DNA of 47,975 nucleotides, from NCBI GenBank assembly GCA_026128865.1, contig JAHCJE010000009.1, positions 1-47,975 on the forward strand, read 5' to 3'. The position numbers and the translations under genes are program-made. Origin of the DNA: Phycisphaeraceae bacterium (GTDB lineage Bacteria; Planctomycetota; Phycisphaerae; Phycisphaerales; UBA1924). The notes under the pieces are model-generated. The model was not told the DNA's origin, did not search any database, and saw only the letters and a program-made list of their open reading frames with translations. Of this stretch, positions 2,069 through 28,335 are shown piece by piece (the stretch's first letter is position 1; each line of letters starts with the position of its first letter).

Positions 2069-2839
2069 ATGAGAACCGCCAACCCTGCCCTCAACGCCTT
2101 CCAGCCCGGCTCCACCGCCTACGAGGTCGCCGCTCGCTCCAGCACCATGACGCTCAACGGCACCGTCACCGCCTCGGGCGTCCTGCTCAGCCTCTGCGCA
2201 GGCGCGGGACTCGCCTCCTGGATGCTCGTCACTAACCCCGCCAACCAGGGCCTCGCCATCCCCATCCTTCTCGGCGGAATGCTCGGCGGCCTCGTCCTCG
2301 CCCTCATCACGGTCTTCAAGCCGACGGCCGCCCCGTTCACCGGCCCTCTCTACGCCCTCCTCAAGGGCGCGTTCCTCGGCGTGCTCTCGTTCGTCGTCGC
2401 CCAGCGGCTCGGACCGGGCGGCGAGGTCGTCGTCTTCCAGGCCATCGGACTCACCTTCGGCATCTTTGCCGCCGTCCTCCTCGCCTACGTCACCCGCGTC
2501 GTCCGCCCCGGCCGCGTCTTCCGCGCCTGCATCATCTCCGCCACCGCCGGCATCATGATCTTCTACGTCGTCGCCCTCCTCCTCAGCCTCTTCGGCGTCT
2601 ACGGCATGGCCTCGCTCCTCTCCTTCGAGAACGCCTCCATGCTCTCCATCGGCCTCTCCCTCTTCGTCGTCGTCATCGCCTCCATGAACCTCGTTCTCGA
2701 CTTCGAACTCATCGAGACCGGCGTCGAACGCGGCATGCCCAAGCACATGGAGTGGTACGGCGCCTTCGCCCTCCTCGTCACGCTCGTCTGGCTCTACATC
2801 GAAGTCCTGCGACTCCTCGCCAAACTCCGCAGCCGCTGA
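2069..2839 (+). CDS. Bax inhibitor-1/YccA family membrane protein
   Basis: This 256-residue polytopic inner-membrane protein has about seven hydrophobic segments. It starts at an ATG preceded by GACAGGAG. The family features are a short soluble N-terminus (NPALNAF), a membrane core with the Gly-rich segment GGMLGGLVLALITVFKP, and the C-terminal FELIETGVERGMPKHMEWYGAFAL, which carries the acidic and His residues conserved in bacterial YccA-like proteins. Members act as pH-sensitive calcium leak channels or FtsH partners in some bacteria; the role here is not known. It follows truA by 32 bases and is probably co-transcribed. Confidence 0.85.
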   Translation: MRTANPALNAFQPGSTAYEVAARSSTMTLNGTVTASGVLLSLCAGAGLASWMLVTNPANQGLAIPILLGGMLGGLVLALITVFKPTAAPFTGPLYALLKGAFLGVLSFVVAQRLGPGGEVVVFQAIGLTFGIFAAVLLAYVTRVVRPGRVFRACIISATAGIMIFYVVALLLSLFGVYGMASLLSFENASMLSIGLSLFVVVIASMNLVLDFELIETGVERGMPKHMEWYGAFALLVTLVWLYIEVLRLLAKLRSR

Positions 2840-2849
2840 ACGCAGCGGC
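2832..2849 (+). terminator. Hairpin at the end of the YccA-like gene
   Basis: GCCGCTG (2832-2838) and CAGCGGC (2843-2849) form a perfect 7-bp stem with a 4-base loop overlapping the stop codon. No T-run follows, so it may stabilise the mRNA end rather than act as an intrinsic terminator. The kinase gene ends convergently 76 bases away. Confidence 0.35.
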
Positions 2850-2924
2850 CTCGCGAGCGAGCTGGAGCAATCCGGGTCGCCCGCCCGAGCACCCGTCCTC
2901 TGCCTTCGCACGCTTTGCCTGAAC

Positions 2925-5900
2925 CTACCGCCCGCTCCCCCTCAGACGCTCCAGGTTCTCCCGCGGCGTCTCCTCCCCGGCAAACCGGATGATCGCCGCC
3001 TCCACGTTCCCGGCGATGTGCGTGTCGTGGTACCGCAGATCCCACAACTCCGCGTTCCCTGAACTCGTCGCGCACGCAAGCGTCATCCCATCCGGGCTGA
3101 ACGCAACACCCGGGATCGGACCCGACTCCGTCTCCAGGCTCGCAAGCAGCCGACCTGACGACCTTTCCCACAACTTGACTGTCCCGTCATCCCCGCCCGA
3201 CGCCAACGTCGCCCCGTCGCGGCTGAACGCAAGCCCAGCCACCACCAGGTGGTGCCGCGCCGCGCCGATCGTCCGCTCTCCCGTCCCAAGGTCGAAGAAC
3301 TCCACCGTCGCCCCGAACGTTCCCGCCGCAAGCGTCCGGCCGTCAGGCGAGATCGCCACAGACCACGGCGTGCTCGTCGTGCGCAGAGCATCCACGCGCT
3401 CCAGCGTCGCCGCGTCCCACACGATCACGCCGTCCACCGCGCCGGATGTGTACAGCCGGGTCCCGTCAGGCGAATACGCCACGTCTCGAGGCAGCGCGGC
3501 CAGCCCGGACGCCAGCGCAACGACACCGCCGTCCTCCACGTCATACACCACCACCGTCGAGTCACCGTTCACCGCCGCAATCCGCCTCCCCTCGGGGCTG
3601 AAGGCCACCGCGTACACCTCGCCGCGCGCTGGGCCGAACGTCCTCAAGGTCTCACCGCTCGAAGCCTCAAGCAGCCGGACGCTCCCATCGCTGCACGCCG
3701 CGGCGATCGTCGCGCCGTCCGGGCTGTACACCGTCCTGCGTGAGCGGTGCGACCGCCCCAACGCCGTCTCCCACAGCACCTCTCCCGTGGCGAGATCCCA
3801 CAGCCGCACCGCCCCATCGCCTCCTCCAGTCACCAGCCGCTGCATGTCCGCGCTGAAATCAACCCCGAAGACCCAGCTCGTGTGCCCAGGGATCGCGCGC
3901 ATCGCCGGCCACTTGCGCGACTCCCACATCCGCACCCAGCCATCCAACTCGACGGTCACGACGCGGTCGCCAACCCAGTCGCTCTTCTGAATCGACCCGA
4001 CAGGGAACGCGATGATCGACCGCATATCCTCCCGCAGATCCTCCACCATGACGTTCAGATTGCGCACCACGAGCGCGCGTCGGCCGTCCGCGTGCATCAC
4101 CACGCCTCGGCAGTCTGTCGCCCCCTGCATTACACGCGGCTGCGTCTGCCCGCTCACGTCCCAGCGCACGACCGCGCGGTCATTCCCGCCCGAGAACAGC
4201 CACCGCCCGTCAGGGGTGAAGTTCATCCCACGCGTCAACGCGTTGCGGACTCCCAGCGTGCGAGCCGCAGGCTCGCCCTCGCCGAACGACCACACCGACA
4301 CCGAGCCGTCGCGGGCAGCCAAGCCCAGCAACGCACCGCTTGCCGGATCGAACGCCATCGCGTCAACAGCCGCATCCCCCGACTTCCACCGCGCTGCCTC
4401 CGAGCCGTCGTCGGCCGACTGAACCACCACCGTCCCCTCGTTCGAAGCCACAGCCACGAGGGACCGCTCGGGGTCAGCCGCCACCGCTGTAACTCCTCTC
4501 TCGATCGCGCGCCATGCCCCCTCACGGGCGATCGCTCCCGCCCCGTCAACGCGCCACGAACGCACCATCCCGTCCGTGTGAACCGACAGCACACGCTCAC
4601 CACCAATCCAGAACACGCCGATGACCGCAGAGGACCGCGAAGGCTCGTCCAGAGACGCGCTCGCCAGCGCTCTCCCGGTTTCCGGGTCGATCGTCGTCAA
4701 CCCGCCGAACCCGGACCCCACGACGATCAGTGTCCCGTCCGGGCTGCCGGCAACCGCCGTCGCGCTCACCCCCACGCGCGCAGTCCACAGACACGGGAAC
4801 CGCGCGTACAACTCCCACAGCGCCCATCTCGCGGGCCTCGAATCCGGCGCAGCGAAGTACTCCGGCCACAGGAAACTCTCCGCTCCGGGTCCGTTGAACG
4901 CCACGCCCTCCGCACGCCCGCGCTCGATCAATCCCGCGTGCAACTGCTCACGAAGCCGATCGTTGAACTGATGCGCCAGACGACGCTGCTCCTCCGCAAC
5001 GCCACGCGCCACCGCCTCCTCCCGGCGGGCGGCCGACTCACTATCCGCCAACGCACGGTTCTTCGTCGACTGGATCGCCATGTACGTCGCCACCACCGCC
5101 AGCACGAGCGCGACGATCACTCCCGCCGCAAGCGCGCTGCGGTAACGGCGCAGCGAACGACGCAGCAGCTCCGCAGCCGATGACTCCCGCGCCGCGATCG
5201 GCTCGCCCGACAGGTACCGCCGGATGTCCGCGGCCAGTTCCGCCGCCGATTGGTAACGACGCGACTTCTCCTTCGCCATCGCCTTCCCGACGATCGTCTC
5301 AATGTCCCCACGCAGCGTCCGGTCCACCATGCTCAGCCGCGTCGGCGCCTCGTCCCGGATGATCCGCGCCGCCTCAGGGATCGACCGCGACCGAAGGTCG
5401 AACGGCAACTTCCCCGCCAGCAGCTCGAACGCGATCACACCCAGCGCGTACACGTCCGAGCGATTGTCGATCTCCGAAGGGTCCGCAGCGATCTGCTCGG
5501 GACTCATATACGGCAACGTCCCGATCAACTGCCCGACGCTCGTCCGAAGTGTCGTCACCTGCAGGTCCGCGTCCATCGCACGCGCCACCCCGAAGTCCAG
5601 GATCTTCGGCTGACCGTGCGCGTCCACCAGAATGTTCGAGGGCTTCAGGTCGCGGTGGATCACACCACGCTGGTGCGCGTGGTGGATCGCGTCGCACACA
5701 CGCGCAAGCAACGCCAGGCGCTCATGCGTCGAGAGCCGCCGCGCCTCCGCGAAGTCCGTGATCGGAGGACCCTCCACCAGCTCCATCGCAATGAACGGCT
5801 GCGATCCCGCCTCCGTCTCCGCGATCCCCGCTTCAAAAATCTGCGCGATCCCCGCATGGTGCATCCGACCCAGAATCTCCGCCTCGTGCTCGAACCTACG

Positions 5901-6290
5901 AAGCAGCGAGGGCGACGCGATCGCCCCCCGGATGATCTTCAACGCGACCGTTCGCCGAGGACGCTCCTGCTCCGCCAGATACACTACCCCCATACCGCCC
6001 GCGCCAAGGAACCGCACCACCTTGTACGAACCGATCCGACGATCCGACGGAAGCGCTGCCTCGAACCGCACCGGCTCGTTGCTGAACGTCGCACCGATCG
6101 GCGCGGCCACCGGGGGCACGTCCAGCATCCCGATCGACCCGGACGCGTGACCCAGCAGCGATTCGACCTCACGACGCAACTCCTCGTCGCGCCCGCACCG
6201 TGCGGCGACGAACGCGCCACGACGATCCGCGGGCACTTCCATCGCCGCAATGAACAGCGACTCCACCTCGCGCAGCCGATCCGCGTCCAT
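2925..6290 (-). CDS. Membrane Ser/Thr protein kinase with C-terminal WD40 propeller
   Basis: The 1121-residue protein has a short N-terminal helical region, then a Hanks-type kinase domain from about residue 86. Visible are the glycine loop GAGGMGVVY, Lys118 (VALKII), the catalytic loop HRDLKPSN at 212-219, DFG at 232-234 and the activation-segment GTLPYMSPEQ. One transmembrane helix near residues 400-425 is followed by a coiled region and then many WD40 repeats (for example GHTSWVFGVDFSADMQRLVTGG) to the C-terminus. The start MDADRLREVESLF was chosen because an upstream ATG would overlap the sigma gene. It begins 8 bases after the sigma factor stop, so the two are an operon. Such sigma-kinase pairs are common in planctomycetes and probably form a signalling module. 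Confidence 0.92.
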   Translation of the reverse strand: MDADRLREVESLFIAAMEVPADRRGAFVAARCGRDEELRREVESLLGHASGSIGMLDVPPVAAPIGATFSNEPVRFEAALPSDRRIGSYKVVRFLGAGGMGVVYLAEQERPRRTVALKIIRGAIASPSLLRRFEHEAEILGRMHHAGIAQIFEAGIAETEAGSQPFIAMELVEGPPITDFAEARRLSTHERLALLARVCDAIHHAHQRGVIHRDLKPSNILVDAHGQPKILDFGVARAMDADLQVTTLRTSVGQLIGTLPYMSPEQIAADPSEIDNRSDVYALGVIAFELLAGKLPFDLRSRSIPEAARIIRDEAPTRLSMVDRTLRGDIETIVGKAMAKEKSRRYQSAAELAADIRRYLSGEPIAARESSAAELLRRSLRRYRSALAAGVIVALVLAVVATYMAIQSTKNRALADSESAARREEAVARGVAEEQRRLAHQFNDRLREQLHAGLIERGRAEGVAFNGPGAESFLWPEYFAAPDSRPARWALWELYARFPCLWTARVGVSATAVAGSPDGTLIVVGSGFGGLTTIDPETGRALASASLDEPSRSSAVIGVFWIGGERVLSVHTDGMVRSWRVDGAGAIAREGAWRAIERGVTAVAADPERSLVAVASNEGTVVVQSADDGSEAARWKSGDAAVDAMAFDPASGALLGLAARDGSVSVWSFGEGEPAARTLGVRNALTRGMNFTPDGRWLFSGGNDRAVVRWDVSGQTQPRVMQGATDCRGVVMHADGRRALVVRNLNVMVEDLREDMRSIIAFPVGSIQKSDWVGDRVVTVELDGWVRMWESRKWPAMRAIPGHTSWVFGVDFSADMQRLVTGGGDGAVRLWDLATGEVLWETALGRSHRSRRTVYSPDGATIAAACSDGSVRLLEASSGETLRTFGPARGEVYAVAFSPEGRRIAAVNGDSTVVVYDVEDGGVVALASGLAALPRDVAYSPDGTRLYTSGAVDGVIVWDAATLERVDALRTTSTPWSVAISPDGRTLAAGTFGATVEFFDLGTGERTIGAARHHLVVAGLAFSRDGATLASGGDDGTVKLWERSSGRLLASLETESGPIPGVAFSPDGMTLACATSSGNAELWDLRYHDTHIAGNVEAAIIRFAGEETPRENLERLRGSGR

Positions 6291-6298
6291 ACGCCACG

Positions 6299-6928
6299 CT
6301 ACTCCGACTCGTCCCGCGCCGACTCCGTCAACGCACGGTGCAGCCACGCGCGGGAAAACGCCCAGTCCGACTTCACCGTCGCCGGAGACACTTCCAGCGC
6401 CGCCGCGGTCTCCTCGATCGAAAGCCCCGCGAAGTAACGCAGCATCACCACCCGAGACTTCCGACCGTCGATCGCCGCCAACTTCTCCAGCGCCTCGTCC
6501 AGCGCGAGCAGATCGTCCGGCGGCGGCTCCGATACCATCGCCTCGTTCGTCAACTCAACCCGCTTCCGACCCCCGCCGTGTTTCAGCCGCTTCCGGTGAC
6601 GCGCTCGCTCCACCAGGATCCGTCGCATCGCCAGCGCGGCCGCACCAAAGAAGTGCCCCCGGCTGTTCCACTGCAGCTCCGCGTCCCCAACCAGACGCAG
6701 GTACGCCTCGTGGACCAACGCCGTCGGCTGCAGCGTCTGCCCAGGAGACTCCGCACCCAACCGGGAGCGCGCCAGACGCCGCAACTCCTCATACACCAGC
6801 GGAAGCAACTCCGCCGACGCCCTCGGGTCGCCCTCGCTCGCCGCGTTCAGCAGCAACGTCACCTCATGCGGGGACCGCGCCGGAGGCGTCGGGGCGGACG
6901 GCGGCTGGGCGTTCGAGTCTCGCTCCAC
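6299..6928 (-). CDS. ECF sigma factor (PF07638/TIGR02999 type)
   Basis: This is an extracytoplasmic-function RNA polymerase sigma factor. Region 2 is ELLPLVYEELRRLARSRLG, followed by QPTALVHEAYLRLVG and FFGAAALAMRRILVERAR. Region 4 is SRVVMLRYFAGLSIEETAAAL with the recognition helix VSPATVKSDWAFSRAWLHRAL. The GTG at 6928 (209 residues) has GAGGGG five bases upstream; an ATG at 6970 (223 residues) is the alternative, with SD-like bases too close to it. It is followed directly by the kinase-WD40 gene. In this family the downstream kinase, not a classical anti-sigma factor, is thought to regulate activity. That link is an inference here. Confidence 0.92.
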   Translation of the reverse strand: MERDSNAQPPSAPTPPARSPHEVTLLLNAASEGDPRASAELLPLVYEELRRLARSRLGAESPGQTLQPTALVHEAYLRLVGDAELQWNSRGHFFGAAALAMRRILVERARHRKRLKHGGGRKRVELTNEAMVSEPPPDDLLALDEALEKLAAIDGRKSRVVMLRYFAGLSIEETAAALEVSPATVKSDWAFSRAWLHRALTESARDESE

Positions 6929-18574: not shown

Positions 18575-19825
18575 TTAGAAGTCGTAGCCGTTGAAGCCAT
18601 TGCGGGTAGTGAGGATGGGCCAGAGGGGTGCGCCGTGTTCCGTCCTGTCGACGAGGTTCTCTGAGGTCATGGGCCAGAGTTCGATCCTGGCTGCGCCGTC
18701 GCCGAGGCCGACGGACATTTCGCGTCGTCGAGCGCGTTCGTGGTGGGGTCTTAGCCGGTCGAATAGCCCTGCGTAGTGGTCGAGGAGGATTCCTTTTCTG
18801 GAAGTGAATCTGAGTTCATCCCACTGCATTGCGCGGAAGAGGGCGGGTTCGGTGGGTGCGCGGTCGCCGACCCAGTAGTTTGGGGCGGCGAAGGCGGTGT
18901 ACGTGAGGAAGTGGTCGGATCTGACGACGTCCGGTGGGAACTTGAGGCTTGCGAGGCGCTCCTCGACGCCTTCCTGTTCGATCGCGGATCGTGAGTCGAC
19001 GTAGTTGGGGACGAGGAGCGTTGCGTAGTACCAGGATTGTCCTCTGAGATAGGAGACGGGCAGGTTCTGGTTGAGGAGGATCTTTGGTCCGTTGGGGTCG
19101 CCTGGGGTCGCGAAGAAGGGGAAGCGTTGGTTATTGTCCGAGCCGTACATGTTGAGTGCGAGGAGGATCATCTTGCTTGTGGAGAGGCTTCGCGTGGTGC
19201 GAGCGGAGATTCTCGCCTCGCGCATTGCGGGAAGCGAGAGCGAGACGAGGATGGCGATGACTGCGATGACGACGAGGACTTCGAGGAGGGAGAAACCGGC
19301 GGCTCGTCGGGGGACGTGGGCAGGCGCGGTCGGCTTATTCCGGGTGTTTGTTCGTTGTACGACAGCCCAGACGAGTGCGGCTGCGAGTGCGGCGTTGCGA
19401 GCGATTGCTGCCTGCGGGGTCGTTCCGAGGCGGATGAAGCGGTCTGCCGGGCCGAGGCAGCCGCAGTCCGGGGTTCCTTCCGCGGCGATCGCCCAAGCGG
19501 ACACAGCGGAGAAGGCGGCGAGGAGTGCGACGGCGGCGGGGATGAAGAGTCGCCTGAGCCATCCGGAGAAGAGGGAGAGTGCGACGGCGGCCTCGACGGC
19601 GACGACGATCGCGAGTGTTGGCCTTGCGAGATCGGGGGCGTCGAACCAGTGCCGGAGGAGGAACCGGACGAAAGCGAGGGCTTGTGAGGGGTCTGCGGCC
19701 TTGCCGACAGCAGCGGCAGCGAAGACGGCGGCGACGGCGAAGGTGAGGATGGTTGCGGAGATGGATCGTGGCGAAGGGCGGTGGTTGTGCTGTTCGGGGT
19801 GGTTTGGCGGCGGATCGTGGCTCAT
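18575..19825 (-). CDS. MauE/DoxX-like membrane domain fused to a type II pseudopilin
   Basis: The 416-residue protein joins two modules. Residues 20-165 form about four membrane helices resembling MauE/DoxX proteins, including VGKAADPSQALAFVRFLLRH and the Cys pair of DCGCLGPADRF. Residues 175 onward form a complete prepilin-like protein: AGFSLLEVLVVIAVIAILVS with Gly before Phe for prepilin-peptidase cleavage and Glu at +5, then a globular domain ending NGFNGYDF. In planctomycetes such pseudopilins are common as separate genes, so the fusion is unusual. No stop or frameshift lies between the modules. It follows the 286-residue secreted protein gene by 16 bases in one operon. Confidence 0.85.
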   Translation of the reverse strand: MSHDPPPNHPEQHNHRPSPRSISATILTFAVAAVFAAAAVGKAADPSQALAFVRFLLRHWFDAPDLARPTLAIVVAVEAAVALSLFSGWLRRLFIPAAVALLAAFSAVSAWAIAAEGTPDCGCLGPADRFIRLGTTPQAAIARNAALAAALVWAVVQRTNTRNKPTAPAHVPRRAAGFSLLEVLVVIAVIAILVSLSLPAMREARISARTTRSLSTSKMILLALNMYGSDNNQRFPFFATPGDPNGPKILLNQNLPVSYLRGQSWYYATLLVPNYVDSRSAIEQEGVEERLASLKFPPDVVRSDHFLTYTAFAAPNYWVGDRAPTEPALFRAMQWDELRFTSRKGILLDHYAGLFDRLRPHHERARRREMSVGLGDGAARIELWPMTSENLVDRTEHGAPLWPILTTRNGFNGYDF

Positions 19826-19841
19826 GGCGGGTCCACCGCTC

Positions 19842-20702
19842 TCAGAACTCGAAGGCCATGGTGCGCATGAGGTCGCAGTTGTAGGTGTTGAGGAACTCGA
19901 TTCTCCACTCGTTGTCTCGCGGGTCGAGGACGAGCGTGAGGACGAGTGGGCGTCTTGAGCCGTCTTCGAACTGGAGAAGGATGCCGACTTCGGCGCAGAG
20001 GACGGAGCCGTGCTCCTTCAGCAGCGCTTCGCCGTTTCGCTCGTGTCGCCACCAGTTCCGGAGGGTGCCGTTGGTTGCGCCGGCCCAGGCGTTGCGTCCG
20101 AGCGTGCCGTTTGGGACTGGCCTGTGGGCTCCGTGGAGCGACTCGACGCGAGCGACGGTACAGATGAGTCCTTCGGGAACCCGCGCGATGGCGACCGGCT
20201 TGTTATAGCCGTCCTTGAGGGTGAAGGCATCGGTGAAGAAACGGGCGAAGACCCGCTCGACGGGTGCCTCGTCGGGGAACGGCTCGCTGTAGTGGAACTC
20301 CCAGTCGGTGTGGATGAACCAAGAGCGTTTCATGTCATCGATGGTCCGGAAGGCATAGCCCTGGTTGCGTCGCCATCGAACGTATTGTGCCGGCGCTGGA
20401 TTCGCGAGGCGCAGGCGGACGAACTCGTTGACGGTGTCGAAGAGGTGCGCTTGCGCGAGGGCAAAGTCGTTCGCGCAGTCCTCGGGCAGTTCGATCTCGA
20501 ACGAGCGGGCGCTGAGTGTGGGAACAGCGTCGGCGAATGGCGTCATATCGACGCGGGAGTAGGCGCGCCTGGCGGCCTTGAGGGCGGCGAGCGATTCGAT
20601 GTCGCGAGTGTTGGTCTCGGGTCCGGGCCGCGCCCACGCGGCGAACGCGAGCGCCGAGATGACGCCATAGGCAGCGACGGCGGTCGCGAGGCGACAGTTC
20701 AT
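19842..20702 (-). CDS. Exported or membrane-anchored protein of unknown function
   Basis: The 286-residue protein starts MNCRLATAVAAYGVISALAFAAWA, a hydrophobic N-terminus that fits a signal anchor or signal peptide. The rest is soluble alpha/beta sequence, including RRNQGYAFRTIDDMKRSWFI, HTDWEFHYSEPFPDEAPVER and LVLDPRDNEWRIEFLNTYNC. No family is recognised. It is the first gene of an operon with the MauE-pseudopilin fusion. This suggests an envelope process, perhaps handling of a secreted substrate, but that is a guess from context. Confidence 0.75.
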   Translation of the reverse strand: MNCRLATAVAAYGVISALAFAAWARPGPETNTRDIESLAALKAARRAYSRVDMTPFADAVPTLSARSFEIELPEDCANDFALAQAHLFDTVNEFVRLRLANPAPAQYVRWRRNQGYAFRTIDDMKRSWFIHTDWEFHYSEPFPDEAPVERVFARFFTDAFTLKDGYNKPVAIARVPEGLICTVARVESLHGAHRPVPNGTLGRNAWAGATNGTLRNWWRHERNGEALLKEHGSVLCAEVGILLQFEDGSRRPLVLTLVLDPRDNEWRIEFLNTYNCDLMRTMAFEF

Positions 20703-20877: not shown

Positions 20878-21450
20878 TCAGCGGACAGGCGACTCTTGCT
20901 TCGGGTGCGGCTCGGCCGTGACCTGGCCCGATTGCGTGTCGATGACGAGTCGGCCCCAGGGGACGGGGACGGCGAGGCGGCCGTCGGGGAGTTTGTCGGG
21001 ATTTGCGGGCGGGCGGCGCGAGTCGAGGTTGAGCCAGCGGATGTCGGGATCGTGGATGTCGCTGGTGGTAACGCGGAAGTTGCGACTCGCCCACTCGGGC
21101 GGGACTTGCAGGAGCGCGATCGGCGGGTCGATGGCGACGACGGTGATGTTGCCGGGGTAATAGCGGTCTTCGGTTTGTTCGTCGGTCCACCATTCGTGGA
21201 AGTAGCGGTCGGCCTTGCGGCTGAGTTGGTCGAACGAGACATGGCGGCGGCCGGCGGTGTAGTGGAGGCCGCGGTGCGTGCCCTTGACGAGATCGAACTG
21301 CTCGGTGCCGTAGACCTTGGCCCTCTCGCCGGGGCCGATCCAAGGGGCGTCGAGTTGCTTGTAGGTCGGGGCGTGGCCGACGCAGTGCGTGCCGCAGCCG
21401 GGGAGGCAGGCGAGGAGGAAGGCGGCGAGGGGGAGGAGGGGGCGGGGCAC
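20878..21450 (-). CDS. Putative lipoprotein of unknown function
   Basis: The 190-residue protein has a signal sequence MPRPLLPLAAFLLACLPGCG, where the Cys of LPGC could be lipidated, although Pro at -2 is not ideal for a lipobox. The mature part is polar with few hydrophobic stretches (APWIGPGERAKVYGTEQFDL, NITVVAIDPPIALLQVPPEW, VPVPWGRLVIDTQSG). No family is recognised. It is a stand-alone gene divergent from the small membrane protein at 21543. Confidence 0.65.
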   Translation of the reverse strand: MPRPLLPLAAFLLACLPGCGTHCVGHAPTYKQLDAPWIGPGERAKVYGTEQFDLVKGTHRGLHYTAGRRHVSFDQLSRKADRYFHEWWTDEQTEDRYYPGNITVVAIDPPIALLQVPPEWASRNFRVTTSDIHDPDIRWLNLDSRRPPANPDKLPDGRLAVPVPWGRLVIDTQSGQVTAEPHPKQESPVR

Positions 21451-22253: not shown

Positions 22254-23504
22254 GTGACCGGGTTGCACGAGTTGTCGCCGGCGGAGATCGCGGCGCGTCA
22301 CCGTTCGCGGATGGTGAACGCGGTGCGGATGACGTTTTTCGTGCTGCTGCTGACGGTGACGCTGCTGAACGTGATCAGCGTGAGCGAGCGTGCGGGGGGG
22401 AGCGGCGCCGGGCGGGCGGGGTGGCTGGCGGAGCGGTGGTACATCCCGCTGTCGGCCGCGCTGGCGTTGTTCGTGGTGTTCCTGGCGGTGGACCTGCTGA
22501 CGCCGCGGAAGAAGATCGCGACGCTGTCGGCGGTGGTGTTCGGGCTGATGGCGGGGATGCTGGCGACGATCGCGTTCGGGTTCGTGATCGACCTGGTGGC
22601 GGAGTCGTGGGACTTCGCGGAGCCGAAGGAGATCGTGGGGACGATCAAGGTGCTGGTGGGGGTGTCGCTGTGCTACCTGGGCATCTCGACGGTGCTGCAG
22701 ACGCAGGACGATTTCCGGCTGGTGATCCCGTATGTGGAGTTCGCCAAGCAGATGCGGGGGACGCGGCCGCTGCTGCTGGACACGTCCGCGCTGATCGACG
22801 GTCGGGTGGTGGAGGTGGCGGGGACGGGGTTCGTGCAGGCGCCGGTGCTGATCCCGCAGTTCGTGGTGCGTGAGTTGCAGACGCTGGCGGACTCGCGTGA
22901 CGGGATGAAGCGGGCGCGGGGGCGTCGCGGGCTGGAGGTGGTGGCGAAGTTGCAGCGGAGCGCGCTGGTGGACGTGGGCATCGACGAGGCGCCGGTGCCG
23001 GGGATGGGCGTGGACCAGATGCTGGTGGAGCGTGCGCGGCAGTTGCCGGCGGTGATCGTGACGACGGACACGGGGCTGGCGCGGGTGGCGGCGATTCACA
23101 ACGTGCCGGTGCTGAACCTGAACGACCTGGCGAACGCGCTCAAGCCGAGCGTGCTGCCGGGCGAGACGCTGCGCGTGCAGTTGATGAAGCGTGGCGAGCA
23201 GCGCAGCCAGGGCGTCGGGTATATGCCCGACGGGACGATGGTGGTGGTAGAGGAAGCGGCGGAGCGCGTGGGGAGCGAGGTCGAGGCGGTGGTGACGAGC
23301 AGCCTGCAGACGAGCGCGGGGCGGATGATCTTCGCGCGGCTTGCGGGCGCGACGGCGCAGCCGGAGATGGAAGCACGCGAAGAGGAACGCGCGGACGCGG
23401 CGGGCGACGGGGCGGCGGTCGAGACTGCGCCCGCGGCGGAGCGGGGGCCTTTCCCGCCTCATGGGCCTGCGCGGGGGAACCGGAAGCGGAATCCGAGGCG
23501 GTGA
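22254..23504 (+). CDS. PIN-TRAM domain membrane protein (YacL-like)
   Basis: The 416-residue protein starts at GTG. Four N-terminal membrane helices (about residues 25-165) precede a PIN domain (LLLDTSALIDGRVVEVAGTG, with acidic residues in LLDTSALIDGR and VIVTTDTGLARVA) and a TRAM domain (LPGETLRVQLMKRGEQRSQG, then GYMPDGTMVVVE). The C-terminal 60 residues are charged and disordered, ending in basic NRKRNPRR. PIN domains cleave RNA, and TRAM binds RNA. The membrane-tethered combination is widespread in bacteria, with an unknown target. The gene ends tail to tail with pilT, four bases apart. Confidence 0.9.
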   Translation: MTGLHELSPAEIAARHRSRMVNAVRMTFFVLLLTVTLLNVISVSERAGGSGAGRAGWLAERWYIPLSAALALFVVFLAVDLLTPRKKIATLSAVVFGLMAGMLATIAFGFVIDLVAESWDFAEPKEIVGTIKVLVGVSLCYLGISTVLQTQDDFRLVIPYVEFAKQMRGTRPLLLDTSALIDGRVVEVAGTGFVQAPVLIPQFVVRELQTLADSRDGMKRARGRRGLEVVAKLQRSALVDVGIDEAPVPGMGVDQMLVERARQLPAVIVTTDTGLARVAAIHNVPVLNLNDLANALKPSVLPGETLRVQLMKRGEQRSQGVGYMPDGTMVVVEEAAERVGSEVEAVVTSSLQTSAGRMIFARLAGATAQPEMEAREEERADAAGDGAAVETAPAAERGPFPPHGPARGNRKRNPRR

Positions 23505-23508
23505 GCCG

Positions 23509-24639
23509 TCAGCCGCCGCCGCCTTTGATGCGGTGGACGAGTGTGGCGGCCTTGACTTCGACTCCCTTGAGGATGCTCTCGAGGGCGTCGCGGTTGGGGG
23601 CGTACCCGCGCGCGGTCTGGAGGTCGATCCACTCCTTTTCGACGAGGTCGGCGAGGGCGGTGGTGAAGGAGCTCATGCCCTCGGCGCGCGAGCCGCTGAT
23701 GATGGCCGGGAGATCGGCGTCCTCGCCTTCGCGTATCTTGTCGCGGACGACGGCGTTTGAGAGGAGGATCTCGCAGGCGGGAACGACCTTGGTCTCGAAG
23801 GTTGGGAGTGCGGGGATGAGTTTCTGGGCGCAGACGCACTTGACGGTGTTGGCGAGGGAGGAGCGGATGAAGTCGCGCTCGTCGGGGGGGAAGAACTCGA
23901 GCATGCGTGCGAGTGACTGCATGGTGTCGGCGGTGTGGAGGGTGGCGAAGACGAGGTGTCCGGTCTCGGCGGCCTGTATGCCGGCGAGGACGGTCTCGGC
24001 GTCGCGCATCTCACCGATGAAGATGACGTCGGGGTCCTGTCGGACGACGAAGCGGAGTGCGGTTTTGAAGGAGTCGATGTCGATTCCGACCTCGCGCTGG
24101 GAGATGATGGCCTTCTTGGGGACGAAGCGGTACTCGACGGGATCTTCGATGGTGATGATGTTGACGTCCTGTGTGCGGTTGATCTGCTCGACCATGGCGG
24201 CGATGGTGGAGGACTTCCCGCTGCCGGTGACGCCGCAGATGAGGATGAGTCCGTCGTTCTCGCGTTCGACGACCTGCGAATAGACGGGCGGGAGGTGGAG
24301 TTCTTCGTAGGAGGGGATTTCGGCCTTGACTCGGCGGATTGCGGCGTGGACGTGGTTTCCGGAGCGGAACATGTCGATGCGGAAGCGGTCGCCGTCGGGG
24401 AGGTGCCAGGCGAAGTCGAGGTTGCCGACTGCCTCGAAGCGTTCGCGCTGGATGGGCATGAGGATGGGGTCGAGGAGGTGGTCGCACTCATCGGCGGAGA
24501 GGGGGGGGGAGTCGATGGGTCGGAGTCGCCCGCCGACGCGGTAGACGGGGGGGAGGCCGACCTTGATGTGGAGATCGGAGGCGTCGAGTTTTTTCATCGA
24601 CGCGAGGAGTCGCTGGATGGTGAGGCTGCCGGTGAGCAC
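23509..24639 (-). CDS. pilT: Twitching-motility ATPase PilT
   Basis: PilT is the hexameric retraction ATPase of type IV pili. The 376-residue chain has the N-terminal PAS-like domain (ASDLHIKVGLPPVYRVGGRL), Walker A GVTGSGKSST, the Asp box ITIEDPVEYRF, Walker B VRQDPDVIFIGEMRD and the His box GHLVFATLHTADT, plus C-terminal helices ending HRIKGGGG. The C-terminal AIRNLIRE-type motif of classical PilT is replaced here by DLPAIISGSRAEGMSSFTTA, similar to other planctomycete PilT. The start is GTG with AGGCGG five bases before it. No other pilus gene is adjacent except the pseudopilin fusion 4 kb away. Confidence 0.9.
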   Translation of the reverse strand: MLTGSLTIQRLLASMKKLDASDLHIKVGLPPVYRVGGRLRPIDSPPLSADECDHLLDPILMPIQRERFEAVGNLDFAWHLPDGDRFRIDMFRSGNHVHAAIRRVKAEIPSYEELHLPPVYSQVVERENDGLILICGVTGSGKSSTIAAMVEQINRTQDVNIITIEDPVEYRFVPKKAIISQREVGIDIDSFKTALRFVVRQDPDVIFIGEMRDAETVLAGIQAAETGHLVFATLHTADTMQSLARMLEFFPPDERDFIRSSLANTVKCVCAQKLIPALPTFETKVVPACEILLSNAVVRDKIREGEDADLPAIISGSRAEGMSSFTTALADLVEKEWIDLQTARGYAPNRDALESILKGVEVKAATLVHRIKGGGG

Positions 24640-24953
24640 CGGGACCGCCTTTCTCCACCAGATGGGTGAGACTGGGGAAGTGTAGGGGGTGGGCGAGGGG
24701 GAGACGGGACCAGCGTGGCCCCGCCCCGAGGGGAGGGGAGGCCGACGGCTGGAGGCCTCGGCACTGAGGGTGAGCAGGACTGGGGGCGAGTCCGGAGTCA
24801 AGGCGGCAATACTGGACGAAGCGGTCGCACCCGGGCCGAGAAAGAGTGGGTGTTCTTGGGGCGCTGCGTGGCGTCGGTGTCGTGGGGTCGGGTGTCCGTG
24901 CGTGCGTGCCCTATTGTGGGCGTCGTCGGGGTCAAAGGGGATGGGAGGCAGGG
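24640..24953. other. Divergent intergenic region between pilT and top6B
   Basis: This 314-base G-rich stretch must hold the promoters of both genes. CCTATTGTGG at 24910-24919 is a possible -10 region for top6B. No protein-like frame or RNA structure was recognised. Confidence 0.4.
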
Positions 24954-27056
24954 ATGCCGGGACAGCGGGGCAAGTCGAGTCCGGGAGCGACGGCGGGGCG
25001 TTCGCGTCGTGTCGGCGGTTCGGGCGCGCCGATGCTTGCCGCGGAGGCGATGGCGGAGAAGCAGCGTGAGATCTCGGTGTCGGAGTTCTTCGCGAAGAAC
25101 CGGCACCTGCTGGGGTTCGACAACCCGCGCAAGGCGTTGCTGACGACGGTGAAGGAGGCGGTGGACAACGCGCTGGACGCGTGCGAGGAGGCGGGGATTC
25201 TGCCGGACCTGCTGGTGGAGATCGTGGAGGTGTCGCCCCCCCCCTCGGCGAGCAAGTCGGGCCGGTACCGGGTGACGGTGCGTGACAACGGGCCGGGGAT
25301 CGTGCGTCGGCAGGTGGAGAACATCTTCGGGAAACTGCTGTACGGGTCGAAGTTCCACCGGCTGAAGATGAGCCGTGGGCAGCAGGGGATCGGGATCTCG
25401 GCGGCGGGGATGTACGGTCTGATGACGACGGGCAAGCCGATGGTGATCCTGACACGGCCGAACCCGAAGAAGCCTGCGCACCACATCGAACTGGCGATGG
25501 ACACGACGAAGAACCGCCCCGAAGTGACGGTGGACCGGGAGACGGAGGAGTTCTACGCGAGTTCGACGGGGACGGGGACGAGCGTGACGGTGGAGATGGA
25601 GGCTCGGTACGCGCGCGGGCGGGCGAGCGTGGAGGAGTACCTGGAGCAGACGGCGATCGCGAACCCGCACGCTTCGATCACGTTCGTGCCGCCGGGGAGG
25701 AACGCGGAGGACGCGGAGGACGCGGATGGGGAGCAGGGGGTTCTGGGCGTCGGCCGATCTGACGACTCCGCGGACTCTGCGGCAGGCACTGTGTCCTCTG
25801 CGTTCGATCGGACGACGGAGTTGGGGGATCGGGTGGTGTATCCGCGGACGGTGGATGCGCTGCCGCCGGAGCCGAAGGAGATCCGGCCGCACCCGTACGG
25901 GGTGGAGTTGGGCACGTTCCTGACGATGTTGAAGAACGCGAAGGCCACGCAGTTGGGGGGGTTCCTGAAGGAGGAGTTCAGCCGCGTGACGCCGGCGGTG
26001 GTGGGCGAGGTGTGCGCGAAGGCGAGCGTGAACGGGGCCAAACTGAGCGAGCACACGTGGCTGAAGTCGATCGACACGGAGACGGCGGAGCGTTTGTACA
26101 CGGCATTGCAGGGGGCGAGGCTGCGGCCGCCGCCGACGGATTGTCTGGCTCCGATCGGTGTTCGGCAGTTGCTTGCGGGGATGCTGAAGGGCGTGCGTGC
26201 GGAGTTCTACGCGGCGTCGACGCGCGAGCCGGCGGTGTACCGTGGGAATCCGTTCCAGATCGAGGCGGCGGTGGCGTTCGGTGGCGACCTGCCGGCGGAG
26301 GAGACGGCGCGGGTGATCCGGTTCGCCAACCGGGTGCCGCTGCTGTATCAGCAGTCGGCGTGCTGCGCGTTCAAGAGCGTGTTGGAGACGTCGTGGAAGA
26401 ACTACGGGCTTGGGCAGCCGCGCGGGTCGCTGCCGGTGGGGCCGCTGGTGGTGATGATCCACATGGCGAGCGTGTGGGTGCCGTTTACGAGCGAGAGCAA
26501 GGAGGCGATCGCGGACTACGACGAGATTCGGAAGGAGATGAGGCTGGCGTTGCAGGAGTGCGGGCGCAAACTCGGGACGTACGTGCGCAAGCGGCAGCAG
26601 ATGCGTCGAGAGAGCGAGCGGCGCGGCGTGTTCGAGCGGTACGTGGGGGAGGTGGCGAAGGCGTGCCACGCGATCACGGGGACGGACGCCGATCGGCTGT
26701 ACGCGGCGTTGCTGGAGCAGGCGCGGAAGCGGACGGCGGTTGCGGACGCGGTGCTGGATGAGGATGGGCGGGTGGTGAGGTCGCGCCCCGAGCCGGGTGA
26801 CGGGGACGACGGGGTGATCATCGTGGAGCGCGACGGGGGGCCGGGGGGGGGCGGCGCGCCGGCCTTGCCGGAGGGTGGGGAAGCGCGGGCGAGCGGCGGC
26901 GGGAAGAGGCGCGCGCGAGAGAAGGAGACTCGGGCGGCGACGCGGGAGAGTGGCGGTGCTCGGAGCGGGCCGAAGCCGGCGCGGCGGGCGAAGCCGCGGA
27001 TGCGTCTGGTGGGCGGGAAGTTGGCGCCGGTGGAGGAAGGGCCCGGGTTGTTTTGA
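24954..27056 (+). CDS. top6B: DNA topoisomerase VI subunit B
   Basis: Top6B is the ATPase subunit of the type IIB topoisomerase that passes one duplex through another. The 700-residue protein has a GHKL ATPase ([48 protein letters not shown]). The H2TH and transducer domains follow, with [19 protein letters not shown] and [19 protein letters not shown], which contains the ATP-sensing Lys. Residues about 250-284 are an insertion, absent from archaeal relatives, that is encoded by an inverted repeat. A charged, disordered tail of about 90 residues follows the transducer. The ATG has GGGAGG five bases upstream. Its partner top6A follows 88 bases downstream. Confidence 0.93.
25701..25804. repeat. 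Inverted-repeat element inside top6B
   Basis: AACGCGGAGGACGCGGAGG (25701-25719) is echoed inverted by TGTGTCCTCTGCGTT (25790-25804), and CTCCGCGGACTCTGCGG (25766-25782) continues that arm. The unit, 104 bases, is read through in frame. Its layout of short tandem units facing inverted copies matches the intergenic element at 13689-13916. Confidence 0.6.
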
Positions 27057-27062
27057 GCGGGG

Positions 27063-27090
27063 GACCGCTCCCTGACGGTCGTGGCTCGTT
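27063..27090 (-). repeat. REP-like dispersed element, copy 2
   Basis: Read on the minus strand it is AACGAGCCACGACCG, linker, GGGAGCGGTC. It fills part of the gap between top6B and top6A. GACCG and CGGTC can form a hairpin in either strand. Confidence 0.65.
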
Positions 27091-27144
27091 GGTCTCGGTT
27101 GATGGCTGGTTGCGGTCGAAGCACAGTGTGTCGGAGCGGGTGCG

Positions 27145-28335
27145 ATGGCGAAGAAGACGACGGCGGGGACGAAGGCCAGTGCGCGGAGCGGGGGAGTGCC
27201 GCTCCATGACGGTCGCGGCTCGTCGGGAGGTCGCGGCTCTGGGCGATCGGGGGGGGGGACGCTGGAGAAGATCGGGGCGTTGGCGGGGGAGGTGGCACGG
27301 GCTGCACACGCGGGGGAGGCGCCGGCGATCGAGGTGCCGACGCGGGCGAAGTCCAACACGACGTGGGACTGCAAGAGCGGCATCCTTCGGATGGGGGATG
27401 CGACGCAGACGCGGGAGTTGTTCAACCTGAATCAGGCGAAGGGGTTCATGCAGACGGTGCTGCACGCGGCGGGGATCAAGGAACTGCTGGAGGCGGACAA
27501 GACTTTGAGCCTGCGCGCGATGTTCTACAAGGGTCTGCACACGATCCCGGGGACGAAGGAGAAGACGTTCGCGGACCAGGACGAGAGCGACGCCGTGCTC
27601 GAGGACCTGGAGGTGACGCTCGGGTCGCTGCGCGAGGAGCTGCACGTCTTCGCGAAGAAGGCGGGGACGATGGTGGGGAACATCACGATCGTGGACTCGG
27701 GTGACGAGATCGACTGCCGGCGGATGGGGTCTGGCGGGTATGCGATCCCGAGCATCGTGGAGCCGGACGTCATTCAGTTCAAGAAGTGCGACGCGAAGTT
27801 CGTGCTGCACGTTGAGAAGAACACGGTGTGGAGCCGGTTCAACGAGGACAAGTTCTGGCAGGAGCACAACTGCATCCTGACGGAGGGCGGTGGTCAGCCT
27901 CCGCGCGGGGTGAGGCGGCTGCTGCGGCGGCTGAACGAGGAGCTGGGGCTGCCAGTGTACTGCCTGCTCGACTGCGACCCGTGGGGGCACTACATCTACA
28001 GCGTGATCAAGCAGGGATCGATCTCGCTGGCGTTCGAGAGCGAGCGGCTGGCGATCCCGGAGGCGAAGTTCCTGGGGCTTCGGGCGATCGACTACCAGCG
28101 GTGCGGGCTGAGCGACGACGTGCAGATCGCGTTGAACGAGAAGGACGTGGCACGAGCGAAGCAGATCGCGGCGTATCCGTGGTTCAAGGACAAGCCGGCG
28201 TGGCGGCGTGAGATCGACCAGTTGCTGCGGAACGGATTCAAGATGGAGGTTGAGTCTCTGATCACGAAGGACATCAGTTACGTGACGGAGACGTACGTGC
28301 CGGAGAGGCTGAAGGCGAAGGATTGGTTGGATTAG
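27145..28335 (+). CDS. top6A: DNA topoisomerase VI subunit A (Spo11-like)
   Basis: Top6A is the DNA-cleaving subunit. The 396-residue chain has the 5Y-CAP domain with SLRAMFYKGLH, where the Tyr after Phe is the catalytic one (as in the FY of yeast Spo11). GTKEKTFADQDESD and VDSGDEIDCRRMGSGGYAIP are strongly conserved with archaeal Top6A. The Toprim domain has the metal-binding Glu in FVLHVEKNTVW and the DxD of LLDCDPWGHYIYSVIKQGS. The conserved part begins near residue 39; residues 1-38 are Gly/Ser-rich, partly encoded by a REP-like repeat. No strong Shine-Dalgarno precedes the ATG. It forms an operon with top6B. Confidence 0.93.
   Translation: MAKKTTAGTKASARSGGVPLHDGRGSSGGRGSGRSGGGTLEKIGALAGEVARAAHAGEAPAIEVPTRAKSNTTWDCKSGILRMGDATQTRELFNLNQAKGFMQTVLHAAGIKELLEADKTLSLRAMFYKGLHTIPGTKEKTFADQDESDAVLEDLEVTLGSLREELHVFAKKAGTMVGNITIVDSGDEIDCRRMGSGGYAIPSIVEPDVIQFKKCDAKFVLHVEKNTVWSRFNEDKFWQEHNCILTEGGGQPPRGVRRLLRRLNEELGLPVYCLLDCDPWGHYIYSVIKQGSISLAFESERLAIPEAKFLGLRAIDYQRCGLSDDVQIALNEKDVARAKQIAAYPWFKDKPAWRREIDQLLRNGFKMEVESLITKDISYVTETYVPERLKAKDWLD
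27199..27223 (-). repeat. REP-like dispersed element, copy 3, inside top6A
   Basis: Read on the minus strand it is ACGAGCCGCGACCG, linker, TGGAGCGG. It is translated in top6A as part of VPLHDGRGS near residues 18-26. It lies 136 bases from copy 2 and in the same orientation. Confidence 0.6.

Follow-up and report, generated by a model that had tools for sequence, protein, structure and literature searches.

The gene considered here was found in a Phycisphaeraceae bacterium, within a stretch of 47,975 nucleotides that was analysed as a whole and is referred to as the window. At positions 18575–19825 on the minus strand, a single uninterrupted frame encodes a protein of 416 amino acids that consists of a MauE/DoxX domain, a basic linker and a pseudopilin. 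The MauE domain extends over residues 22–156 (19358–19762, minus strand) and is recognised by Pfam MauE (PF07291) with 61 bits against a cut-off of 27, while the linker, residues 157–177 (19295–19357, minus strand), ends at Gly177, after which a cut is predicted from its charge and the conservation of the -1 residue. The pseudopilin comprises residues 178–416 (18578–19294, minus strand), with a hydrophobic helix at about residues 179–199; the Pfam model N_methyl (PF07963) matches residues 173–196 with 28.6 bits (cut-off 21.2) and TIGR02532 (GFxxxE) scores 23.3 against a cut-off of 16.3. When 40 homologous fusions were scanned, PF07291 was matched at E 0.01 in all 40 and N_methyl in 34. Averaged over the family, the main hydropathy peaks lie around residues 27–42, 71–83, 92–112, 144–151 and 179–199, which suggests four helices in the MauE part and one in the pilin. 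A CGC motif at residues 121–123 (19457–19465, minus strand) falls in a K+R-poor loop that is predicted to be periplasmic, and the prepilin site in the middle of the chain reads AAG177|F178SLLE182. A preliminary description, made from the sequence alone, had seen here four membrane helices with a CGC motif joined to a complete prepilin-type protein with its own cleavage site in mid-chain, and this is borne out by the open frame, the two domain matches and the hydropathy peaks. Its term type II pseudopilin proved too specific, the GspG model (TIGR01710) reaching 28 bits against a cut-off of 88.85; membership of the BT_3928 family (NF045576) was likewise rejected, at 28.1 bits against an equivalog-domain cut-off of 250.

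Seven residues are invariant across 40 aligned fusions, namely Lys42, Glu78, Cys123, Glu182, Tyr227, Lys344 and Gly410, and all of 43 fusions have the second Cys of the CxC motif, while 42 have the first. A structure model of the window fusion, built from three sequences (pLDDT 38.9), was too poor for a fold search and carries no weight, and a search of solved structures by sequence matched pilin N-termini alone.

Directly upstream, separated by a 16-bp gap and on the same strand, lies the gene for protein A, of 286 amino acids (19842–20702, minus strand). The span 18575–20702 given earlier for the fusion therefore holds two genes, the fusion itself ending at 19825; the accompanying statement that an exported protein is encoded upstream holds good, the protein having a hydrophobic start; no match to it was found at E 1 among the families of Pfam or NCBIfam. 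Protein A may have an NTF2-like extracytoplasmic domain. A model built from three sequences (pLDDT 69.7, pTM 0.70) gave many structural matches that are NTF2-like among those listed, including the CaMKII hub, VirB8-like proteins and TraM, and the best of the NTF2-like matches listed is weak to moderate (Z 6.0, rmsd 3.7, 119 residues). Foldseek returned no match to the model below E 0.39 and comparison with a viral fold library yielded nothing significant. That protein A is perhaps an anchored NTF2-like protein is offered as a lead.

Third-position GC is 0.76 for the fusion and 0.82 for protein A, and it is higher in many neighbouring genes, up to 0.96; the lower values could reflect a foreign origin or fast change. 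Upstream of protein A lies a lipoprotein-like ORF of 190 amino acids without a Pfam match (20878–21450, minus strand). A gene with a TRAM-domain match (22254–23504, plus strand) is found near the cassette, and a similar-looking protein is encoded near a related cassette, at 535–1896 on the minus strand of locus L177, where ORFs of at least 250 amino acids were listed. The resemblance of these two neighbours suggests the same ancestral locus. The window also carries, at 24846–28335 on the plus strand, a gene pair for both subunits of a type IIB DNA topoisomerase in a bacterial genome, with matches to Topo VI B (PF09239, 3.8e-57) and Topo VI A/Spo11 (PF21180, 3.4e-57).

Recurrence of the fusion and alternation with split genes

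Searched against 61 genomes, the window protein gave a match at E 1e-10 in 46, and many of the matches listed span both domains. A set of 43 uninterrupted fusions was drawn from the window plus 60 fetched regions, and 40 of these served to build a fusion profile; against 163 genomes of the family to which the window belongs, the profile gave a match at E 1e-40 in 95. With 11 candidates scored per genome, and with rows and genomes counted by hand so that the numbers are lower bounds, the family holds at least 100 full-span fusions, of which at least 94 lack a stop and occur in at least 48 of the 163 genomes. Among these genomes are G107 and G177, each of one contig; at least five different ones occur in genome G015, and the window's own genome carries a second full-length fusion, on contig C112, at 33% identity. 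The two-domain order that had been singled out earlier for a search in relatives is thus recurrent within the family. Outside it, no full-length fusion was found when the order (301 genomes, E 1e-60, five candidates scored per genome), the class (198 genomes, E 1e-50, nine candidates) and the phylum (119 genomes, E 1e-40, 15 candidates) were sampled; matches there were pilin-only, in G038 of the order sample and in G043 and G188 of the class sample. A tblastn search of plasmids with the fusion gave no match.

Because the full-length arrangement recurs in many genomes, the fusion is more than a chance juxtaposition, and it is confirmed as real. An assembly or sequencing error that merged two adjacent genes could have been suspected from the separate genes present in many relatives, and once in the own genome, where the MauE and pilin parts on contig C180 form two separate overlapping frames, as well as from the single stop carried by 6 of the 100 full-span fusions listed. 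Against such an error stand the uninterrupted full-span forms, those of the two one-contig genomes included, and the different fusions that coexist in the own genome and in G015. Separate genes in relatives had been named in the preliminary description as a mark of misassembly; such relatives do exist, but the conclusion fails, since fused and split forms occur side by side, a candidate start of its own was found for 32 of 32 split pilins, and one-contig genomes carry fusions. We consider the probability of an error to be negligible.

A set of 120 pilin-centred cassettes, each with a pilin profile score of 100 bits or more, comprises 58 fused, 32 split into separate MauE and pilin genes and 30 in which no MauE was found; the regions were taken from search matches, fusions first and MauE-less matches next, and the ratio is for this reason not a frequency. 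Nine of the 30 MauE-less cassettes lack a detected partner, and four of these nine lie within 400 bases of a contig end. Rows below 120 bits were excluded from the tree and the motif counts, which left 119 of the 120. On a quick tree of these 119 pilins, in which 24 of the 116 inner branches have good support, the best topology shows 15 switches of the fused or split label, with at least three on supported branches. Moreover, across 88 cassettes the distances between MauE sequences are correlated with those between pilins (r 0.65, the best of 500 permutations reaching 0.11), as expected of a pair that is inherited jointly.

Spacing was taken for 31 split loci, the 32nd having Asp at +5; in these, the MauE stop ends at most 58 nt upstream and at most 52 nt downstream of the point where the -1 codon of the pilin begins. 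The position of these stops indicates that the gene is broken close to the predicted peptidase cut. A candidate pilin start overlaps the MauE stop by 4 bp in 16 of the 31, and the leaders are 4–14 residues long.

A locus from another family of the order (L092, contig C15 of genome G047, about 2801–6678) carries protein A and a stand-alone MauE on the same strand, while a pilin of the window's subfamily lies in two pieces on the opposite strand; between these two pieces lie ORFs that resemble an insertion-sequence transposase.

The internal prepilin site and its predicted cleavage

The residue at -1 is Gly in 36 and Ala in 22 of the 58 fusions, with Phe at +1 in 53 and Glu at +5 in every one; these rows include a second match in locus L081, in which the MauE half is frameshifted. 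Similarly, the 32 split pilins have Gly (16) or Ala (16) at -1 and Glu at +5 in 31. A review (PMC10191384) describes pilin leaders as ending in Gly or Ala and as cytoplasmic by the positive-inside rule. For 43 fusions, the K+R content per 100 residues is 17.0 at the N-terminus, 6.1 in loop 1-2, 29.8 in loop 2-3, 7.5 in the CGC loop and 20.0 in the linker, and the net charge of the linker is positive in 91% of the 58. This pattern places the cut site on the cytoplasmic face and the CGC motif on the opposite face. The fusions thus combine Gly or Ala at -1 and Glu at +5 with a basic side that is predicted to lie inside, and what precedes the site, 177 residues in the window fusion, is a stretch with four membrane helices in place of an N-terminal hydrophilic leader. 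The own genome has one match to Peptidase_A24 and six to secretins, a planctomycete gene for a prepilin peptidase lies on contig C2 of genome G000 (3237–3503), and a gene for a T2SSE-family ATPase is located in the window at 23509–25455.

Release of the pseudopilin by prepilin peptidase is well supported, as far as sequence can support it, by the predicted topology, by the conservation at -1 and of Glu5, and by the split paralogues that are broken nearby; we consider it quite probable that the fusion is cleaved in this way. Separate translation of the pilin would be possible in the 40 of 58 fusions that have some in-frame start codon before the site, and the window fusion and 17 others (18 of 58) lack an in-frame ATG, GTG or TTG in the 30 codons preceding it.

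The main alternative is a five-helix protein that stays uncut, with the pseudopilin tethered to MauE and its head working close to the redox site as a domain for periplasmic binding or docking. It would explain why fusion is favoured, and the fusion is indeed maintained in many genomes, but Gly or Ala at -1 and Glu5 are conserved in all 58 fusions, and the same review explains Glu5 by pairing with a neighbouring subunit's free N-terminal amine (PMC10191384). The split paralogues, 32 of the 120 cassettes, manage untethered, and the repeated changes between fused and split forms on the tree also argue against a tether, which we regard as unlikely.

Two cassette types and a possible redox role for MauE

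Beyond what had been described before, the fusion belongs to a small gene cassette that has been copied repeatedly and of which there are two types, falling on opposite sides of one branch of the tree, and one of which has a Cys-rich partner. In type A, that of the window, the gene for protein A lies directly upstream, and cassettes assigned to it by profile comprise 25 fused, one split and two without MauE. All 22 cassettes of the first type A set have protein A immediately upstream, as members of one BLAST cluster, and 19 of these 22 sequences have an N-terminal hydrophobic segment. In type B, the order is protein B, a small secreted Cys-rich protein and then MauE and pilin. Protein B is exported and has about 380 amino acids, with an N-terminal hydrophobic segment in 10 of 11 sequences and a C-terminal one in 10 of 11. 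That proteins A and B form one family is not supported (hhalign probability 1.9 over 21 columns), nor was protein A found to be related to the pilin head (probability 0.1). Searches of solved structures by sequence gave nothing convincing for protein A, protein B or the Cys-rich family.

Six alignment columns of the Cys-rich family hold Cys in 45 to 50 of its 50 seed sequences, and a hydrophobic stretch precedes the mature part in 48; no match was found above cut-off in Pfam (10 scanned), nor any in NCBIfam (three scanned). Among type B cassettes, its gene occurs in all 33 fused ones and in 28 of the 29 split ones, i.e., in 61 of 62 with MauE, and in 5 of 19 without MauE when called by profile, two of the five being weak (E 0.06 and E 0.9), or 6 of 19 if locus L160 is counted by eye. 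The seeds were ORFs with at least eight Cys just upstream of MauE, a choice that biases this presence table, and the Fisher p value of 9e-10 for the association ignores both kinship and seed choice. Independently of seed choice, the gap between protein B and the pilin is below 300 bp in 12 of the 14 MauE-less loci lacking a profile call. After correction for kinship on supported branches, five contrasts agreed in direction in 3.6 cases on average, with 1.4 ties and 0.0 cases opposed (p 0.125), such that the link between MauE and the Cys-rich protein is suggestive, not proven.

Whole-genome searches were made with the Cys-rich profile. Four genomes with type B cassettes (G000, G015, G034 and G177) gave 12 matches, all of them at MauE-bearing cassettes, against 15 cassettes with a Cys-rich gene known in these genomes; eight of the 12 were rows in the profile build and four are independent. 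In three additional genomes there was a single match, a weak one (G024, E 0.0066). Among the proteins of the cassettes that were scanned, there was no Pfam match of the thioredoxin type (MauD-like). Cys-rich secreted proteins are also encoded upstream of the pilin in the MauE-less cassettes L133, L143, L150 and L160, which may use a MauE encoded elsewhere or mark a different variant.

Disulfide formation in methylamine dehydrogenase has been attributed to MauE as a speculation (PMC7794033), and a gene of the DoxX family accompanies a lasso peptide with disulfides (PMC9266682). MauE of type B probably keeps the Cys-rich protein oxidised, a service for which we think the odds favourable.

For type A the case is weaker, and a redox role there, although possible, is held only tentatively. 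No Cys-rich gene occurs in the 28 type A cassettes and the CxC motif is kept in 25 of 25 type A fusions, which argues against the pairing of MauE with a Cys-rich protein as a general rule. At E 0.01 the Cys-rich profile matched none of five whole genomes (G030, G035, G014, G069 and G089) picked since their typed fusions are of type A, that of G014 carrying a stop. Protein A was rejected as a conserved thiol substrate, because it has no conserved Cys column (maximum 6 of 22) and one of its members is Cys-free. It could then be argued that MauE is a topogenic leader only, removed and discarded, and that in type A it performs no redox task. The 28 cassettes and the five genomes show no redox partner, and cassettes without MauE exist; but CxC is retained in 25 of 25 fusions of this type and Lys42 and Glu78 in 40 of 40 aligned, split cassettes have MauE as a separate gene, and we find the proposal improbable, rather more so than the uncut tether.

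Proposed processing and relation to known systems

The reading that we prefer, with a probability of roughly 0.6, is that the window gene is the fused form of a MauE and pseudopilin gene pair and would encode a two-product precursor cut by prepilin peptidase. The chain would insert with its N-terminus inside, and the four MauE helices would return it to the cytoplasmic face, with the CGC motif outside, so that the basic linker could take the part of a cytoplasmic leader in front of a prepilin that is ordinary in other respects. Cleavage after Gly177 would then yield a MauE-type thiol-redox membrane protein and a pseudopilin in equal amounts, made together with the anchored protein A from the gene just upstream. 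The released minor pseudopilin, with a free Phe at its N-terminus, could join a type IV filament or pseudopilus. The fusion, its recurrence, the alternation of fused and split forms, the conservation of motifs and the cassette partners are computed results; the incorporation into a filament is a step that we infer. A more far-reaching version, in which prepilin peptidase serves as a polyprotein protease whose mid-chain cut gives a polytopic membrane oxidoreductase and a pilin in equimolar amounts, and in which the cassette folds its own extracytoplasmic protein by MauE and displays or exports it by the pseudopilin, the Cys-rich protein in type B, is rather speculative and we lean against it as a whole.

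Prepilin peptidases are known as trimmers of leader peptides. If a leader can be a whole membrane protein of redox type, their role would be wider and the fusion would be a natural two-product membrane precursor; pilus-type filaments would also become tied to oxidative folding. Proteins A and B and the Cys-rich protein, which have no Pfam or NCBIfam name, gain partners, and the many natural pairs of fused and split forms make the question directly testable.

Both halves of the fusion come from known families, while for the arrangement, the likely processing and the cassette we found no counterpart among described systems, and no description of a MauE-pilin link or fusion was encountered in the literature searched, most subscription journals lying outside its scope. 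The beta subunit of methylamine dehydrogenase is rich in Cys and disulfides. The four-helix domain PF07291 is common to the fusions and to MauE, and a type B MauE beside a secreted Cys-rich protein resembles MauE serving that subunit, a role given as speculation (PMC7794033); unlike there, MauE precedes a pseudopilin in one chain, and type A lacks a Cys-rich partner. In the cluster for the lasso peptide sviceucin, with the DoxX-family protein SviE and the thioredoxin SviF, a MauE/DoxX-type protein is likewise encoded with a small exported disulfide product, but the cluster has neither pilin nor fusion, the product is a lasso peptide, and the function of SviE is called ambiguous (PMC9266682). 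With type IV prepilins the fusion shares the prepilin site and the hydrophobic helix with Glu5. The first 60 residues of the pilin part align with the major pseudopilin GspG (TIGR01710, 28 bits), whereas its globular head constitutes a subfamily of its own. Foreign domains grafted onto pilins are known from modular pilins (PMC10191384), but in the fusion the extra part lies on the leader side, has four membrane helices and would be removed, not displayed.
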